Below are positions 34,460 through 42,247 of a stretch of DNA of 64,000 nt, piece by piece. Both the position numbers and the translations under genes were made by a program. The notes under the pieces are model-generated. The model ran no database searches, had not been told where the DNA came from, and saw nothing but the letters and a program-made list of their open reading frames with translations. The stretch is taken from positions 124,001 through 188,000 of the forward strand of contig NW_026251408.1 of assembly GCF_025118155.1 (NCBI RefSeq), read 5' to 3'. This DNA comes from Cokeromyces recurvatus. Lineage: Eukaryota > Mucoromycota > Mucoromycetes > Mucorales > Mucoraceae. Position 1 is the stretch's first letter. Each line of letters starts with the position of its first letter.

Positions 34460-36410
34460 TTATTTTTATTTTTTTTTTTTTAAATTTTTTTGGCAATGAG
34501 CATGTAGCGACGAAATAAATGCGCAATATTGCCCGAGCCAGTTATAGAGGGGAAATAAGAATAAAAACCTTCCTAAAGGACAAGAAGGGAAAAAGGAAAA
34601 CGAGAAGGAAAAAGAAAAGAGCAGTATTTTGGAATTAAGAGAAAATATAAGGAGGATAAAGCGAAAAAAAGTGAGAAGAAACAGTTTAAATACAAATCAG
34701 ACCAAAGTGACCAGGAAGACACACACTATTACTTGGACAACCAACTCAACAGCTTGAGACCAGGATTGACAGGATTAGGGGGAAATTCATCATGGAAGTA
34801 GTAATCAAGTTCATGTAGAATTGTACAAAGAATAGGCCATAAAGTATACCAGCCCGTACAATCAGAAGGACGACGAGGTTTATGTAGTGGAAGCAAGTTG
34901 AGAAGGAACGAGATGGGATCTTCGACTGAAGTAGACATGTAGAGACGATTACGTACATGTAAGCACTCAATAGCATATTGCCGGCTCCAATTATGAGACG
35001 GATGAAAGATACATTCTTTAGGTTTACCACCCGGTAGCCAGCCAAGTCGCCATCGAAGCACTCGGCTACGTTCTAAGGTAGTCATTGGTAAGTAAAGGAT
35101 GGGATCCAATTCAAGAGTGGGGCGTGAGGAAGACAATAGGAGGGAGTTAGTATCTTGACGAAGGTTTTGAAATTGATCATCTAGAAACTTAGCACAAAGA
35201 GTGTAGAATTGTTTTCGGTCGAGCGTTGAGATGTTTGGTGAGCATAGGTGTTTCCACAATGTAGTTTGAGCCAATTTATACCAGCGGGAATGACTATTTG
35301 AAAGCTGAACGTGAGGCAAAAGATGGGCAAGAAGAGTATCTGCTGGTAATTGGGAAGTTCGAAAGAGGTATTGCGCTTGGAGGACTGCAATACGGGTCTT
35401 CATGGATGGTAGGTTGACAAGATGAAGCATGACTTTCGTCGAGGACCGTGAGTGACCACCAAAGATACGTCAAATGCATGAATTTTGAAAGGTATCCAGT
35501 TCTTTGGTAAGTTTAGCAGAGAGAGGACTGATTGCAAGACCATAATCTAACTGAAAACGAACCATTTGACTATAAAAACGACATGCAAGCAGAGGTGGAA
35601 AACCTTTGGAGTTGAGACCAATAGCAACAAGTTGATTCATAGTGAGAGAGGCTTTATTGATATTATGTTGGATTAAAGCAGCATAGTCAATTAGACCACC
35701 AGGTTTTATAGGAACACCAAGATAAGAAAAGGAGGATTCTTTGGGAATAGCAGTACCATATAATTGATATGGTTGAGGATCATTGGTAGGATCGATTATG
35801 ACACATATTAATGGGTTCCACTGATAACCTAAGGAGTAACTATGAACTTCGCATTGGTGCAGTAAAGAAGCGAGTTTCTCAGGGGAGGCAATAAGGACGA
35901 CATCATCAGCATAGAGTAGACAATTAAGGGACGGTACAAATGTAGTAACTACATCAGTAGTGGAGGAGTCATTGAGTTGGTGTGGCAACCTCAAACGAGC
36001 TGGAAGTTGGTTGATATAGATTGAATATAGAAACGGAGAGAAAATAGACCCTTGTAAGACGCCAGTGACAGGAGAAAAACGATACGATATATAATTATCA
36101 AGAAGAACTTCAATTTGAACCTGATCAAAGAGATTTTTGAGAACTCCAAGAAAAGCCGGGCAGAGATGAGGTTGAAGCACTTCCCAAATATAGGAACGAT
36201 CAACAGTATCATACGCTGATTTGATATCTAAAAAAGCAAGGATAGGAAAATAATTGTGGTTACGCCGAAGAATAGAGCAGATTTCGACAAGACAATGAAC
36301 TTGATCAAGGGAGCTATGAGATTCACGAAATCCGCCTTGAGCAATGTCAAGAGTAGGGGATTGTTCTAGTAGGCTAGTGTTGTGTATATAATGATGTATT
36401 ACATAATAGC
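34460..36410 (-). mobile_element. 5'-truncated non-LTR retrotransposon (LINE) relic
   Basis: The minus strand carries the C-terminal half of a LINE ORF2 (see the pseudogene entry), followed by about 230 bases of 3' region and an A-rich tail (T-rich on plus, about 34452-34497) ending in AATAATAATAATT-like repeats. Coding similarity fades at about 36410 into ordinary AT-rich DNA, the usual sign of 5' truncation on insertion. Target-site duplications were not identified, so both ends are approximate. Confidence 0.8.
34729..36410 (-). pseudogene. LINE ORF2 reverse transcriptase, truncated and interrupted
   Basis: In one minus-strand frame the RT palm motifs follow in order: 'AQGGFRESHSSLDQVH' (block 2a type), 'LAFLDIKSAYDTVDR' (motif A), 'GVLQGSIFSPFLYSIY' (motif B), 'LLYADDVVLIA' (motif C, YADD at 35902-35913) and 'SFSYLGVPI' (thumb). 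An in-frame TGA at 35470-35472 splits the frame inside 'FQNSCI', after which the same frame runs on 247 codons to 34729 and ends with a Cys-His-rich segment ('CIFHPSHNWSRQYAIEC'). The endonuclease and N-terminal RT are missing. Nonsense plus truncation make this copy non-autonomous. Confidence 0.9.
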
Positions 36411-37239
36411 TTATAATATACAGATCAGAGTCATGAAGGACCGAATGATATTATAGTTATTAGTTGTACACTTTATGCATACAATATTATTTGATTTCAG
36501 TTTATAAGACATTCTTGTGATGAGAAAAATAATGTTATAATAAATACTAACTCTACGAAATAATGATAAGAAAAACATAGTGTAAGGAGTTATTAATGAT
36601 AAAGATATATGAATTATAGATTATACCTATTAGTTATATATATATTATTATTATTGTAATATTGTCTAAAATACTAATTTATAAATATAATCATATACTA
36701 TCTATGAGAACTCTATTTTAATTGAATACACTATATAATATAATGAAATTCATTTAAGTAGTACATTAAGGAATGAATATAATACAAAGAAGCTGGTTAG
36801 AATATAAATTTATATGTCAAAAGTATCTTTCCTATATCATTCACAAGTATGAACAAACGAGATTTCATTATTTGGTTTCAAGAAAAATAACCGGCTAGAT
36901 CAAGCACCAATAATTTAATATTTATTAGAGTTAACTGAGATTAATTCTCAGTCAGGGCAAAGACTAGAGTTTTAACACAATAACTTTAATCATTCTATGG
37001 GAAAATATTCTTCTTTCAAGATATCTTCATTCTGTTCCAGTCGCGAAGTAACCCGTTCTCCACAAGATATAAATAAGGATCCATTTTGCATCCATTTTCT
37101 AGACATTCACTTTTATTTTTATTCAATTGATAATAAAAGTCTTATACAAAGTTTTCACAGGTTTATTCTGTCTTATTCTTTTGTTATCTTTATCTTATCA
37201 ACACCGCCTTTTTTTTTGATACAATTTGTAACAAATTCA
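36411..37239. other. AT-rich region between LINE and transposase remnant
   Basis: About 830 bases, very AT-rich, with a small hairpin ACTGAGA-TTAAT-TCTCAGT near 36930-36950. No coding signal recognised. Confidence 0.5.
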
Positions 37240-37430
37240 AAATAATGAATCCTACAATTGTCCATAACAATGTAGGCTCCATGTTTTCCTTGCCTATCTA
37301 AAATATCCATATTTTGTTCGATAAATTTTAATACATGGTAGGCGAGAGAATGATCATGGAAAATTGAAGTATAGAATACGAGATAGAACAGTACTTTTGT
37401 ATGTGCTCTACTACTTTCAAACCATTTCAC
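37240..37430 (-). pseudogene. Fragment of a DDE transposase (Tc1/mariner-like, DDE_3 type)
   Basis: A short minus-strand frame contains 'FIEQNMDILDRQGKHGAY' followed by 'IVMDNCRIHYFEFV'. This matches the second catalytic Asp region (Met-Asp-Asn, Asp codon at 37260-37262) of IS630/Tc1-like transposases found in Mucoromycotina, where the pattern is Ile-Val-Met-Asp-Asn-x-x-Ile-His. Upstream and downstream catalytic parts were not found, so it is a decayed remnant. It lies about 270 bases from, and divergent to, the Fanzor copy and may be the remains of its carrier transposon; that link is inference. Confidence 0.6.
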
Positions 37431-37697
37431 ATATTTAGCGACCTTATAATTCGATTATTGCTTCCAAACTGATGGGTGATATATCTTCAGATATTGTTTC
37501 GTGTCCAGTGCTGTTATCCTCGCCAATTTATCACATTTTATAATTACATATCATGATGAAGTCACACATGATCGTGGAAATTTATAAACTTTCAACGAAA
37601 ATGTTGTTATTCACTTCTTTACTCTTTTTTATATTTTGCCTTTTTCTTCCTAAATGATCTTTATTTTTTATATTGGCCTTAAATGAATCACTTAAAA
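37431..37697. other. Spacer between transposase fragment and Fanzor
   Basis: About 270 bases, AT-rich. May contain the eroded 5' end of the Fanzor gene; no ATG in a matching frame could be assigned. Confidence 0.45.
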
Positions 37698-39760
37698 GTA
37701 ATAACTTTAAAGACATCTGTTTCCGGTATACAGTGAAGACACGAACTTATACCAAGGCTAAAAGATCTTGTATCAACCGTTAACATACTTGTTACCCATA
37801 CTTTTGCATTGACAAAATTTATATTCATCAATGAGTTGGAAAGAAGCAAATTTTTTGATCTGGAAAAACACGCTGAAAAGGACTTTTACGATGAAGTGTT
37901 CCTAGAGCTCACCAAACAAAATCGTAAACCTTCTAAATCAACGAAAACTAAAGACTATAGAGATTTAATACGAAAGTATAAAAACGAGTATTGTATCTTA
38001 ACCAAGTATGATCCCATCGAGTTGAAATACGCGCAACAAATAGCAGCATATGAGTGTGCGAAGATCGACACAGCGTACAAAAATTCAGTCATATTACAAT
38101 TTGGAAATCGTTTCCGGATGTTCATTAACCACCTTACACAACAAAAGGCCAAGATAACCAAGAGGAAACAAGAATTAAAGAAAGCCAAGAAAAGCGAGAA
38201 TGATATCAAGAAAATCATTTCTGACGAAAACACAAAGCCGTTAACCCAATTGAAGCTTTCTCTTGCCTCCGGTAATACACAAATATGCCAGTAACCCTTT
38301 TGGACAACAAGGACGTCAAACTTATTAAAGAATTTTTTGGTACTTATGGGCCGCGTTGCGAATTTATGAAAGCAAGTATATATTATGACTGTAAGGTACA
38401 GCCTTTGAAGCACCTTAAAGCATATTACAAGATGGCAAAGTACTGTGAAGAATTAGGCTACAAATCATTCATGTGTTTTCCGCTCCGTCGAACGTATGTG
38501 CCATGCTATATGACGATTGATACATTGATCGTGAACAATCATATTCTGCGTAATACAAATAGATCTAATTTAGACAAAGGCTTCATTTGGAGCCAAATAG
38601 TCAACCTCTCATCGAAGGGCATGAAGGATCAAGGTGCTTCAAAATCTTTGAAATTTCGCGGAATGATTCAGTCTGATGGTGTAGGTGTGTCGGTGTTGAA
38701 GCAAAATAAAGAGAGTGCAAAGGGTGGTACGCGTGGTACCAGACTAGAAGAAGACGACAACTTTCGATACATACACCAGTTGTCCAAAACTGAACTTGAG
38801 GAAATTACCGGAAGATGTGTCCTTATTGATTCTGGACGGAGAGATATGCTCCATTGCATGCAGGAGAATAGTGAATCTAGAAAAGACAAACACACCTACA
38901 GATACACCAGCAACCAGTGTGCGGTTGAGACGAAAAAAAGAAAATTTAGGAAACTGCGCGATATAAAAAAACCTATGTCAGTAAAGGAGCATGAAAACTA
39001 TCTATCGAAATTTCCAGCATCAGCAATCAAAGTAGACAAGTTCTCTGACTATCTCAAAGCACGTTCTATAATCGAAGATCCACTTCGAGAGTACTACTCA
39101 AACGAAAACATACCCCACAAAAATGCCGATCTGCTTCCCTTTCGCAAGTTGAAATTATCATCTATCATAAATAAACAACAATCCGATCATCGCTTAGCAC
39201 AGACTTTGAAGCAACAATTTGGAGACGATGCTATTCTCATTCTTGGGGACTAGAATGCCGGAAATACAAAGTACCAAGAGCCAATTCGTGGGAAAGGCGT
39301 AAGAAGGATGCTCAAGAAGCATGGTTTCTCTGTTTTACTTATAGATGAACATAAAACGTCTTCACTGTGCCCTACTTGTACGGTCGGTAAACTGGAAACT
39401 TTCAAAAAAGTTCAAAACTCACGACCTTTTCGTCGCTCGAAATATCACAAGGTGGAATGCCACGGACTCTTACGGTAAGCTTCATTTCTTTCTTTTTTTT
39501 TTTAAAAAAAAAATACGTATTAATGAGGTCTTTATAGATGCCTCAATCATCAATGTTTGGAGTCCCTCCGCCTCTGGAACCGAGATCTTTCTGCGGTCTT
39601 AAACTTTCGGGATATTTTGAAGTCTCACCGAGAAGGGCTTGGCCACCCGACTCGATTCAAGAGACAATCTTTGAAACGCCCCTTACCCAACAATCAACAA
39701 GCTTCTTACAGAAAACTTTTCCGCCATATGCTATCCAATGAAGGCCGCGAATCTGCCTGA
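37698..39760 (+). pseudogene. Fanzor-type (eukaryotic TnpB) RNA-guided nuclease, disrupted copy
   Basis: Homologous stretches run in order across about 2.06 kb. N-terminal: 'YTVKTRTYTKAKRSCINR', then after a 1-base frame change (about 37780) 'NILVTHTFALTKFIFINEL'. Middle: a second frame change at about 38290, then 'CFPLRRTYVPCYMTIDT'. RuvC-I: 'CVLIDSGRRDMLHC' (Asp codon 38828-38830; usually Asp-Pro-Gly). Then 'ILGD', an in-frame TAG at 39251-39253 where relatives have Trp, 'NAGNTKYQEPIRGKG', 'LLIDEHKTSSLCPTC' (Glu codon 39347-39349 and first zinc Cys pair). After a 63-base intron (39475-39537): 'RCLNHQC' (second pair) and RuvC-III 'RL-WNRDLSAVLNF' (Asp 39584-39586). Fanzors are transposon-borne nucleases guided by an RNA from the gene's 3' side. 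No start codon was found. Family call strong; the copy cannot make full-length protein as written. Confidence 0.85.
39475..39537 (+). other. Spliceosomal intron within the Fanzor copy
   Basis: Donor CG|GTAAGC and acceptor TTTATAG|A. Removal joins 'CHGLLR' to 'CLNHQC' in frame and so completes the zinc ribbon. It shows that the element was adapted to eukaryotic expression. Confidence 0.8.
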
Positions 39761-41192
39761 GGGGTGGATATTGATATGGTAAACCTTGATACAGGTGAGT
39801 TCTTTTTTTTTTTTTCTATTCTTCTGAATACTAATTTTCTTTTGTCTGATTTCCATTCTTATTTTGTCTAAAAATTAATTTTGATTCGTCCAGAAAAAAA
39901 CTAACATCGTCTGAATTTAAAGTAGAAATACTATATAAGAAACAACGCCTTCTATATGTACAATTCTGCTTGAGATGGACTATCTAGCTCACTCCCAAAT
40001 CCCTGAACCCTCTGACCATCATCTTCTTTCAATACAAAAAGGAATTTCTGATAGTTAATTATCATCATTTATACATACACTTTAACATTTTCCCTTTTAT
40101 TCCAAAAGGGTTTTTCTTTCCTTTCCTTTTTTCCATAGCGATCTGACCAGGGCAAAACAGCATATATAAATGCTATATGCTCATTGGTCATTTTTTAATT
40201 CTTCTTTTTAAAATAAAATTCTTCTTAATCGTAGCAGAGTAACCAATCTTCTTATAAAAAATCTACCATTTCACCATGCATTTTAAAAGGAAGTTAATAG
40301 CAGAAATATTCAGCTGTTTCTTTTTCTCTCCTTTTCAGAGAAGTTATTTACTCTTCTATTAATCATAAAGTGAAGAAGAAAGTAGTTTTGCTTATTAGAA
40401 TGAATAAAGAATTTGACTTATTTGCTTATAAAATATTATTTTTTTTCACGTATAAAAATAATAGTTATGGTATTTAGTACTGATGACTAATGATGAACAA
40501 AGTAATTTCACTCAAAATATGTAAACATTATTATTTGACTTACTTTGTCCCTTGAAGTAAATAATTTGCTAATAGTAAGTCTTTATATATTCTTCATTTC
40601 TAAATAATATTTAGCTCTGCGTGGTTCTATAGAGCAAAATATATCAAGAATAAAGCAAAAATGAACTTAAAACTTCTTGTTATACACCATTAAAAAATAT
40701 GAAGAACCCAATTATTTTAGTAAATACTTTTTGCTATAATAGCCTTTGTCTTAAGAATTCTCATTGATATATATATATAATAGCTTTTAATGAATAGCAA
40801 TACAAGTATCTCACAAAAGAAGTAGGGGCCTACTTAAAAGAGTGTTTAAACGTGCTATTCCTATTAATAGTTATATATTATAGCCGAATACGTTATAGAG
40901 CATTGCCATATAAAAGTATATAATAAAATATAGTATGTGGCAGTAAGTTAAAAAAGAGTCAGTGAGAGAATACTGTTTATTCTATTAATATAAATTTATA
41001 AATTCAAATACTGAAGAGTCTCAAAGTAACTTTTAGTGATAATAAAAATTCGACTATTAAAGCACTACTAATCCTTATAAGAATAATAGCAGTATATGCT
41101 TTTTATATGCCCGATAATTTGATCAAGCCACCCCGGCTCATCAGCTATTTTTTCCCCTTGTCGCCCCACTTTTTAAAGGTTTCAATTTTTAA

Positions 41193-41227
<35 letters not shown>

Positions 41228-41237
41228 AAAGGTAGAC
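39761..41237. other. Gene-poor region downstream of Fanzor
   Basis: About 1.5 kb, AT-rich. It would include any guide-RNA (omega-RNA) region and right end of the element just after 39760, but I could not identify a right end. A T tract (about 41191-41220) precedes the next gene. Confidence 0.5.
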
Positions 41238-42247
41238 ATGATGTTGGCAGCTTTTTCAAAATCACGAGTGCTTTCGACCAGAGTTATATCTACTATTAAA
41301 ACAGGTAAAGAAGAATATAAATTAAACTGTTTAATACTGACTTCTCTTTTAGTACCTAGATTAACTACAGCATTTCTTCATACACAATCCACACCTCAAG
41401 AAACCACCATCGATCCATCTATACATTCACTTGGAGCACGACTTGGCCTTCAAACACTTGATCCAATCATTCTAAAACAAGCTCTCACCCATAAATCTGT
41501 AGATGAACAAGTAAATAACAATGCGAGTCTAGAATTTATCGGCAAACGAGTGGTAGGCCTGTTTGCCACGGAATACATTCATTGCAAGTACCCTAATCTC
41601 TATCCAGAAGCCTTTGTCATCGTCCTTTCATCACTCATTAATAATACCTCTTTTAGTAAAATCGCAACTGAAGTTGGCCTACAGCATTGTATCGCTTGGA
41701 AACCACCTACTGTCCCAACAAAAAACCTTGGTCAAAATAGTGTCTTGGCAACCTGCATGAATGCTATTGTGGGCGCTATCTTCCAGGAACAAGGCATAGA
41801 AGCAGCAAAAAAATTTGTACATGATTTCATTTTATCGCGCGATTTTGATATTAGTCCTGCATTAAAAACGCAAATAAAAGAACCCAAACGCTATTTATCA
41901 GCCTTGTTAAGACAAATGGGTATGAAGCCTGCTGAATCAAGACTTCTTTCAGAGACTGGTAGATTATCATGTTCCCCTGTATTTATAGTAGGTACCTTTT
42001 CAGGAAAAGAAAAGTTAGGTGAAGGATTTGGTAGCTCAATCAAAATGGCTGAATTTCGTGTAAGTAGGAAGAAATAAAGAAAGAGTCCGATAGTTAACGT
42101 TTATATGTATATATTTAATAGGCTTGCCAAGATGCTTTATTACACCATTTTGGAAAAGAATATAAAGATTTCGTTCTACCTTCAGATGCTGATAAAGTAG
42201 AGAAATATGTGCCAGCTCCTTTAGGAAAGATATTACCAATCATTTAG
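41238..42247 (+). CDS. MRPL3: Mitochondrial large-subunit ribosomal protein mL44 (RNase III-like)
   Basis: Three exons, 41238-41304, 41353-42059 and 42122-42247, encode 299 residues. The 48-base first intron is in frame, so a longer unspliced reading exists; donor GTAAAG, TACTGAC branch and TTTTAG acceptor favour splicing. An N-terminal presequence-like stretch is followed by an RNase III fold ('SLGARLGLQTLDPIILKQAL', 'THKS', 'ASLEFIGKRVVGLFATEYI') and a dsRNA-binding domain ('SPVFIVGTFSGKEKLGEGFG' and 'SSIKMAEFRACQDALLHHF'). In active RNase III the signature is Glu-x-Leu-Gly-Asp; here it reads Glu-Phe-Ile-Gly-Lys, so catalysis is lost, as known for mL44, which is structural near the exit side of the mitoribosome. 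Confidence 0.9.

Follow-up and report, generated by a model that had tools for sequence, protein, structure and literature searches.

Evidence for a decayed Fanzor1 gene in the remnant of a Tc1/mariner-type transposon of Cokeromyces recurvatus

Two Fanzor1 proteins with solved structures are the closest described systems for the gene considered here, PpFz1 from Parasitella parasitica (PDB 9cf0-9cf3, PMC11423790) and SpuFz1 from Spizellomyces punctatus (PDB 8gkh). The catalytic residues of SpuFz1 are D383, E541 and D606 (PMC11423790), and its gene is flanked by 30-nt inverted repeats (PMC10432273). The RuvC-I Asp followed by Pro-Gly is near exclusive to Fanzors, where an alternative catalytic Glu is found in a rearranged position, six residues before the first zinc Cys (PMC10711439). 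Elements that carry a Fanzor only, or a transposase as well, with mariner-type ends and TA duplications, were described by Bao and Jurka in 2013 (PMC3627910). Mucor, Rhizopus and Phycomyces are among the hosts listed there; in the part of that survey covered here, the mariner-type Fanzor elements come from other hosts, those of Mucorales being MuDR-type or unclassified, and Cokeromyces is absent from the examined part of its species table. In the open-licence full-text literature, no match was found for Cokeromyces recurvatus with Fanzor, and PMC11423790 is the only one for Fanzor with Mucorales.

The window analysed here is a stretch of 64,000 nucleotides within contig C15 of the 28 Mb genome of C. 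recurvatus (Mucorales). It contains a gene that is identified by homology as Fanzor1, with the following features:

37683 to 39760, + strand: Fanzor1 gene, from ATG (37683) to TGA (39760), placed by homology to solved Fanzor1.
37683..39474, + strand: Fanzor1 exon 1, with the N-terminal half, RuvC-I, RuvC-II with the alternative Glu and the first half of the zinc ribbon; interrupted.
38828..38830, + strand: codon of the RuvC-I catalytic Asp in a DSG context, from alignment to solved Fanzor1.
39347..39349, + strand: codon of the alternative RuvC-II Glu, six residues ahead of the first zinc Cys.
39368..39379, + strand: first Cys-x2-Cys of the zinc ribbon, from alignment to PpFz1.
39475..39537, + strand: predicted spliceosomal intron of 63 nt, GTAAGC...TATAG, from homology to its kin.
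39538..39760, + strand: Fanzor1 exon 2, with the second half of the zinc ribbon, the RuvC-III Asp and the C-terminus to the TGA; 9cf0 E 4.2e-6.
39539-39556, + strand: second cysteine pair of the zinc ribbon, read from the sequence.
39584-39586, + strand: codon of the RuvC-III Asp, from sequence and alignment.

The coding sequence is found on the + strand as four open pieces (37737-38294, 38276-39253, 39254-39478 and 39527-39760), all of which align to PpFz1 (9cf0), with E 1.2e-34, 7.4e-77, 1.5e-21 and 4.2e-6 in gene order. SpuFz1 (8gkh) is more distant: its matches to the second, third and fourth pieces have E 3.3e-28, 2.3e-8 and 0.035, the last being weak, and the first piece (37737-38294) has no match to it. 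The strongest match to each structure bears out the family named in the original prediction, and the order of motifs on which that prediction relied was also recovered, every quoted motif being found at its position. Of the span proposed at that time, 37698..39760, the end stands, while the start of the gene moves to 37683 and the remnant of the surrounding element runs from 37203 to ~39935. The zinc-ribbon profile PF07282, suggested as a check, does hit the gene, but at 21.1 bits it remains below its cut-off of 26.3; the proof of family is drawn from homology to the solved Fanzor structures, Pfam by itself being insufficient. A TnpB or Cas12-like gene recently acquired from bacteria would have the RuvC and zinc-ribbon architecture of PF07282 in common with the window gene, but its significant solved relatives are only eukaryotic Fanzor1 proteins, the protein relatives that bear an organism name are all fungal, and it carries the alternative Glu and is interrupted by a spliceosomal intron, leaving a bacterial origin with a very small probability.

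The active site expected of a Fanzor1 is preserved at residue level. The Asp in LIDSGRRD aligns to SpuFz1 D383, the Glu in LLIDEHKTS to E541 and the WNRD Asp to D606, the spacing of the aligned SpuFz1 residues, 158 and 65, being that of the published triad; PpFz1 has the same triad. Thus the Glu that had been put forward as the alternative catalytic residue does sit on E541, and its spacing from the zinc ribbon is E-HKTSSL-C (39347-39370). The window gene has a zinc ribbon, as does SpuFz1; its four cysteines are all present, and in L010, a sister copy in the same genome, they line up with those of PpFz1 once the intron is removed. The residues that follow the RuvC-I Asp are more variable: the window has DSG instead of the DPG of PpFz1, DPG is kept in the sister copies L010, L011 and L012, and L013 has DTG. 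Of the inspected loci, 18 can be read at this point, 10 with DPG and 8 with other residues. The Pro was apparently lost in the decayed window copy, which is still placed in the family by homology. The claim of intact RuvC-I, zinc-ribbon and RuvC-III signatures is therefore accurate for the catalytic and zinc residues, but not for RuvC-I, where DSG replaces the usual DPG.

The putative intron interrupts the zinc ribbon, as had been proposed. Its position is kept in L010, L011 and L013, and in L012 the intron start is lost; reading across it leads, gap-free, to the HGLLRC of PpFz1, a comparison made through the public model of L010 (HRLLRC). The zinc-ribbon intron is thus supported both by its position in the sister copies and by the reading frame of PpFz1.

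Compared with PpFz1, the window copy is broken, and three lesions were located in its frame:

37734..37736, + strand: in-frame TGA near the N-terminus, from comparison with L010.
38276..38291, + strand: frame break with overlapping frames, one base fewer than in L010, placed after 38281.
39251..39253, + strand: in-frame TAG, from comparison with L010.

The original prediction described an intact copy, which does not agree with a frame broken at least three times, by two stops and one frame break. The codon at 39251..39253 is a stop also in L011 (TAG) and L013 (TAA) and a Trp in L010; over the 15 loci compared, it is Trp in 11 and a stop in 4. Sites exclusive to the window and L011 number 2, against 4 and 7 for the other two pairings, and the shared stop may be inherited or recurrent. 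The sister copies bear lesions of their own: two other stops in L010, one stop and one frame break in L011, four stops and two frame breaks in L013, many indels and a 372-base loss in L012. Indeed, an unbroken Fanzor frame was found in none of the 20 loci inspected, the window's included, out of at least 31 window-type loci, a count that rests on tblastn pieces and allows only the known intron; the intact paralogues sought in the same genome are accordingly missing from this set. The nearest to unbroken is L020, with one stop and zero frame changes before the intron.

If the lesions were errors of sequencing or assembly, the copy could be a working Fanzor, and the frame break is indeed of only one base, a common type of error; but each of the two stops is due to a substitution, L011 and L013 also have a stop at the TAG codon, RuvC-I is without its usual Pro, and a stop or frame change was found in 20/20 inspected loci (tblastn pieces), all of which makes such errors a very unlikely explanation. 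The stop at the same codon in three of the four family copies that still contain it (window, L011 and L013) would also be expected if a product truncated at the TAG, devoid of the Glu, the zinc ribbon and the last Asp, had been kept as a DNA-binding, nuclease-dead Fanzor. Against this, the window has an earlier TGA and the frame break, L011 and L013 have other frame breaks, the codon is elsewhere a Trp, one transition away from a stop, and L023, which belongs to another subfamily, also has a stop there; retention of a shortened product is judged extremely improbable. The window copy is, by its sequence, a Fanzor1 member by descent and not a working one: it is unremarkable within a known family, and one more dead Fanzor1.

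Traces of past selection are visible in the comparison of the copies. Each of the seven pairs with L012 or L013 as a member has a dN/dS of 0.36-0.47, and the four of them that were tested gave Fisher p between 1e-6 and 1e-4; for the window copy it is 0.36 and 0.45 against the older copies L013 and L012, 0.44 against L011 (p 0.006) and, with L010, 0.62, a value that does not differ from 1 (p 0.10). Inner-branch and private changes show no shift (p 0.57), so that relaxed selection on the young branches is not significant. These values fit a gene that would once have been under purifying selection and is now drifting.

The Fanzor1 gene lies within a remnant that is assigned, from its transposase and ends, to a degraded DNA transposon of Tc1/mariner type. 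The element and its neighbours in the window are:

34472-36450, - strand: non-LTR retrotransposon whose reverse transcriptase domain matches RVT_1 (E 1.3e-18).
37203 to ~39935, Fanzor1 on the + strand: element remnant, from the transposase remnant to the right terminal repeat.
37203..37454, - strand: remainder of a DDE_3 transposase of Tc1/mariner/IS630 type, C-terminal part; its PF13358 match, E 0.0057, does not reach the cut-off.
39846..39935, + strand: right terminal repeat with a degenerate terminus, common to the sister copies and other elements of the genome.
39947..40234, + strand: 3' end of a non-LTR retrotransposon adjoining the right end (108 candidates genome-wide, of which 40 were scored as copies).
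41223-42077, + strand: host gene for a mitochondrial ribosomal protein mL44-like product (RNase III-like domain E 4.3e-25), adjoining the element.

The block from 37203/37209 to ~39922 is common to four other loci, with 90.8-96.5% identity over the main aligned piece. The DDE_3 remnant of the window ends at ~37203 and runs on leftwards in L010, L011 and L013; the homologous piece of L013 scores 38.6 bits, above the cut-off of 28.6. One TAG in this remnant is common to L010, L011, L012 and L013 and absent in the window; since divergence places the window copy, which has no such stop, with L010 and L011, the shared stop is probably older than the spread of the family. The elements would therefore have multiplied without their own transposase, and the Fanzor probably spread on an element whose transposase was dead.

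At the right end, the sister copies have GTAAAAACTGTA, with GTAAAAACTATA in L013; the exact motif or its ATAAAAACTGTA form occurs there in 7 of the 20 inspected loci, and at 39922-39935 the window retains it in degenerate form. In other elements bearing these ends, the termini are CAGTTTTTAC beside TA. The terminal repeats stand in inverted orientation within L010 (54 bp, 91%), and the right end of L010 matches, inverted, the left end of L013 (126 bp, 85%), where the left terminus is degenerate. TA is found at both sides of L037 and L040 and at one side each of L038 and L039; the window is without a left end. The guide RNA, if any, would be expected at the right end, 39846..39935, which is partly conserved; single-sequence folds of 70 nt from nine copies disagree with each other. 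For the adjoining repeat at 39947-40234, a role as terminal repeat of this element was considered and rejected, since it is the 3' end of a non-LTR retrotransposon with at least 40 genomic copies.

The window family differs from PpFz1 also by the absence of the FRI insertion, a cyclophilin-binding stretch of ~100 residues in RuvC, with a gap at PpFz1 chain 986-1069. The insertion is present in 7 of the 20 inspected loci (L017, L020, L021, L023, L024, L025 and L028), that of L017 matching PpFz1 with E 3.1e-16; putative FRI-bearing and FRI-free subfamilies thus coexist in one genome. Among 75 protein relatives compared, 24 match the FRI, including those of Mucor mucedo and Gilbertella persicaria; in the part of PMC11423790 covered here, its authors report it only from Parasitella and Rhizopus. 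The alignment of L017 has a five-residue gap in the proline-bearing loop of the insertion, which may correspond to the loop that binds cyclophilin. A second Fanzor subfamily comprises L014, L016, L018, L019, L026 and L027; in these six loci the left boundary falls at the antisense 3' end of a non-LTR retrotransposon (3583-3936 in L014 and 3238-3661 in L016, oriented with the gene). L016 has an inverted copy of this retrotransposon end on its other side (97% over 430 bp). As to the idea of retrotransposition, target-site duplications in the six loci are none longer than in shuffled controls.

The one unusual point of the locus is the sharing of its ends across nuclease lineages. With the 134-base right end of L010 as query, the best 40 of 95 candidate places in the genome were scored, and the 23-base terminus, allowing up to 3 mismatches, occurs at 71 genomic places, with 0 for the reversed control. 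After overlapping or adjoining rows were dropped, the merged sites come to at least 87 ends, at least 31 window-type loci and at least 119 loci of a second lineage, the best candidates having been scored. Among the 87 listed ends, the nearest Fanzor is of the window type for 10 and of the second lineage for 38, and neither lies within 3 kb for 39. Thus 48/87 listed ends stand within 3 kb of a Fanzor match, with ~3 expected by chance, and 31 of these 48 are 3' of the gene, on its strand. The class with neither does not mean empty elements, because 4 of its 39 ends are those of L039 and L040, where a third type is present; nuclease-free elements comparable to the 'ghost' elements of S. punctatus (PMC10432273) could be among the others.

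Two queries for the second lineage, carried by L037 and L038, gave 142 and 140 match rows, several rows falling in one locus. L037 scores 41.8 bits with PF07282 and has a weak match to SpuFz1 (E 2.4e-5), and its translation shows DPG and the alternative Glu. Profiles of 12 public relatives of the window type and 14 of the second lineage align with 16% identity (probability 96.4), and public relatives of both occur in other Mucorales. The ends are far more alike: those of L037 match L010 at 89.0% over 100 bases and 84.5% over 103, those of L038 at 85.6% over 90 bases and 83.0% over 88. L039 and L040 match the second lineage at 27-28%, and the zinc-ribbon score of L040, 20.4 bits, is below cut-off; their assignment to a third Fanzor/TnpB-like type is the least certain. 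In eight of the longer open frames of L037, L038, L039 and L040, no transposase was recognised with Pfam. The same terminal repeat therefore flanks, as far as homology can tell, at least two further, very divergent Fanzor/TnpB-like types. Ends that are ~83-89% alike and nucleases that are ~16% alike cannot have drifted freely together; either a common transposase, acting in trans, would have kept the ends alike, or exchange would have taken place between ends and nucleases. Chimeric elements of Fanzors that share one end and differ in the rest have already been described in other organisms (PMC3627910), so that the shared ends extend a known pattern and are not of a new kind.

Taken together, the locus is very probably a decayed Fanzor1 inside the remnant of a Tc1/mariner-type transposon of C. 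recurvatus, a conclusion founded on the family, the catalytic and zinc residues, the intron as read by homology, the lesions, the transposase remnant and the shared ends. For the live lineage we infer RNA guidance, cutting and movement in trans: the protein would bind an RNA made from the right end of the element that carries it and would cut matching DNA beside a short motif, which may help the element to persist or spread, and the element would be moved by a mariner-type transposase from elsewhere, acting on CAGTTTTTAC ends at TA. The window copy is no longer able to act or move, because of its three frame lesions, the missing left end and the degenerate right terminus.

Finally, one set of ends might serve as a chassis for the exchange of at least three Fanzor-type lineages that barely recognise each other in sequence, with a guide RNA encoded in the ends, perhaps in nuclease-free ends too, that may serve more than one of them, a proposal that is tentative and rather doubtful. 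The genome of C. recurvatus holds dozens of Fanzor loci, together with one family of ends common to several nuclease lineages, and thus makes both the use of guide RNA across lineages and the identity of the moving transposase testable.
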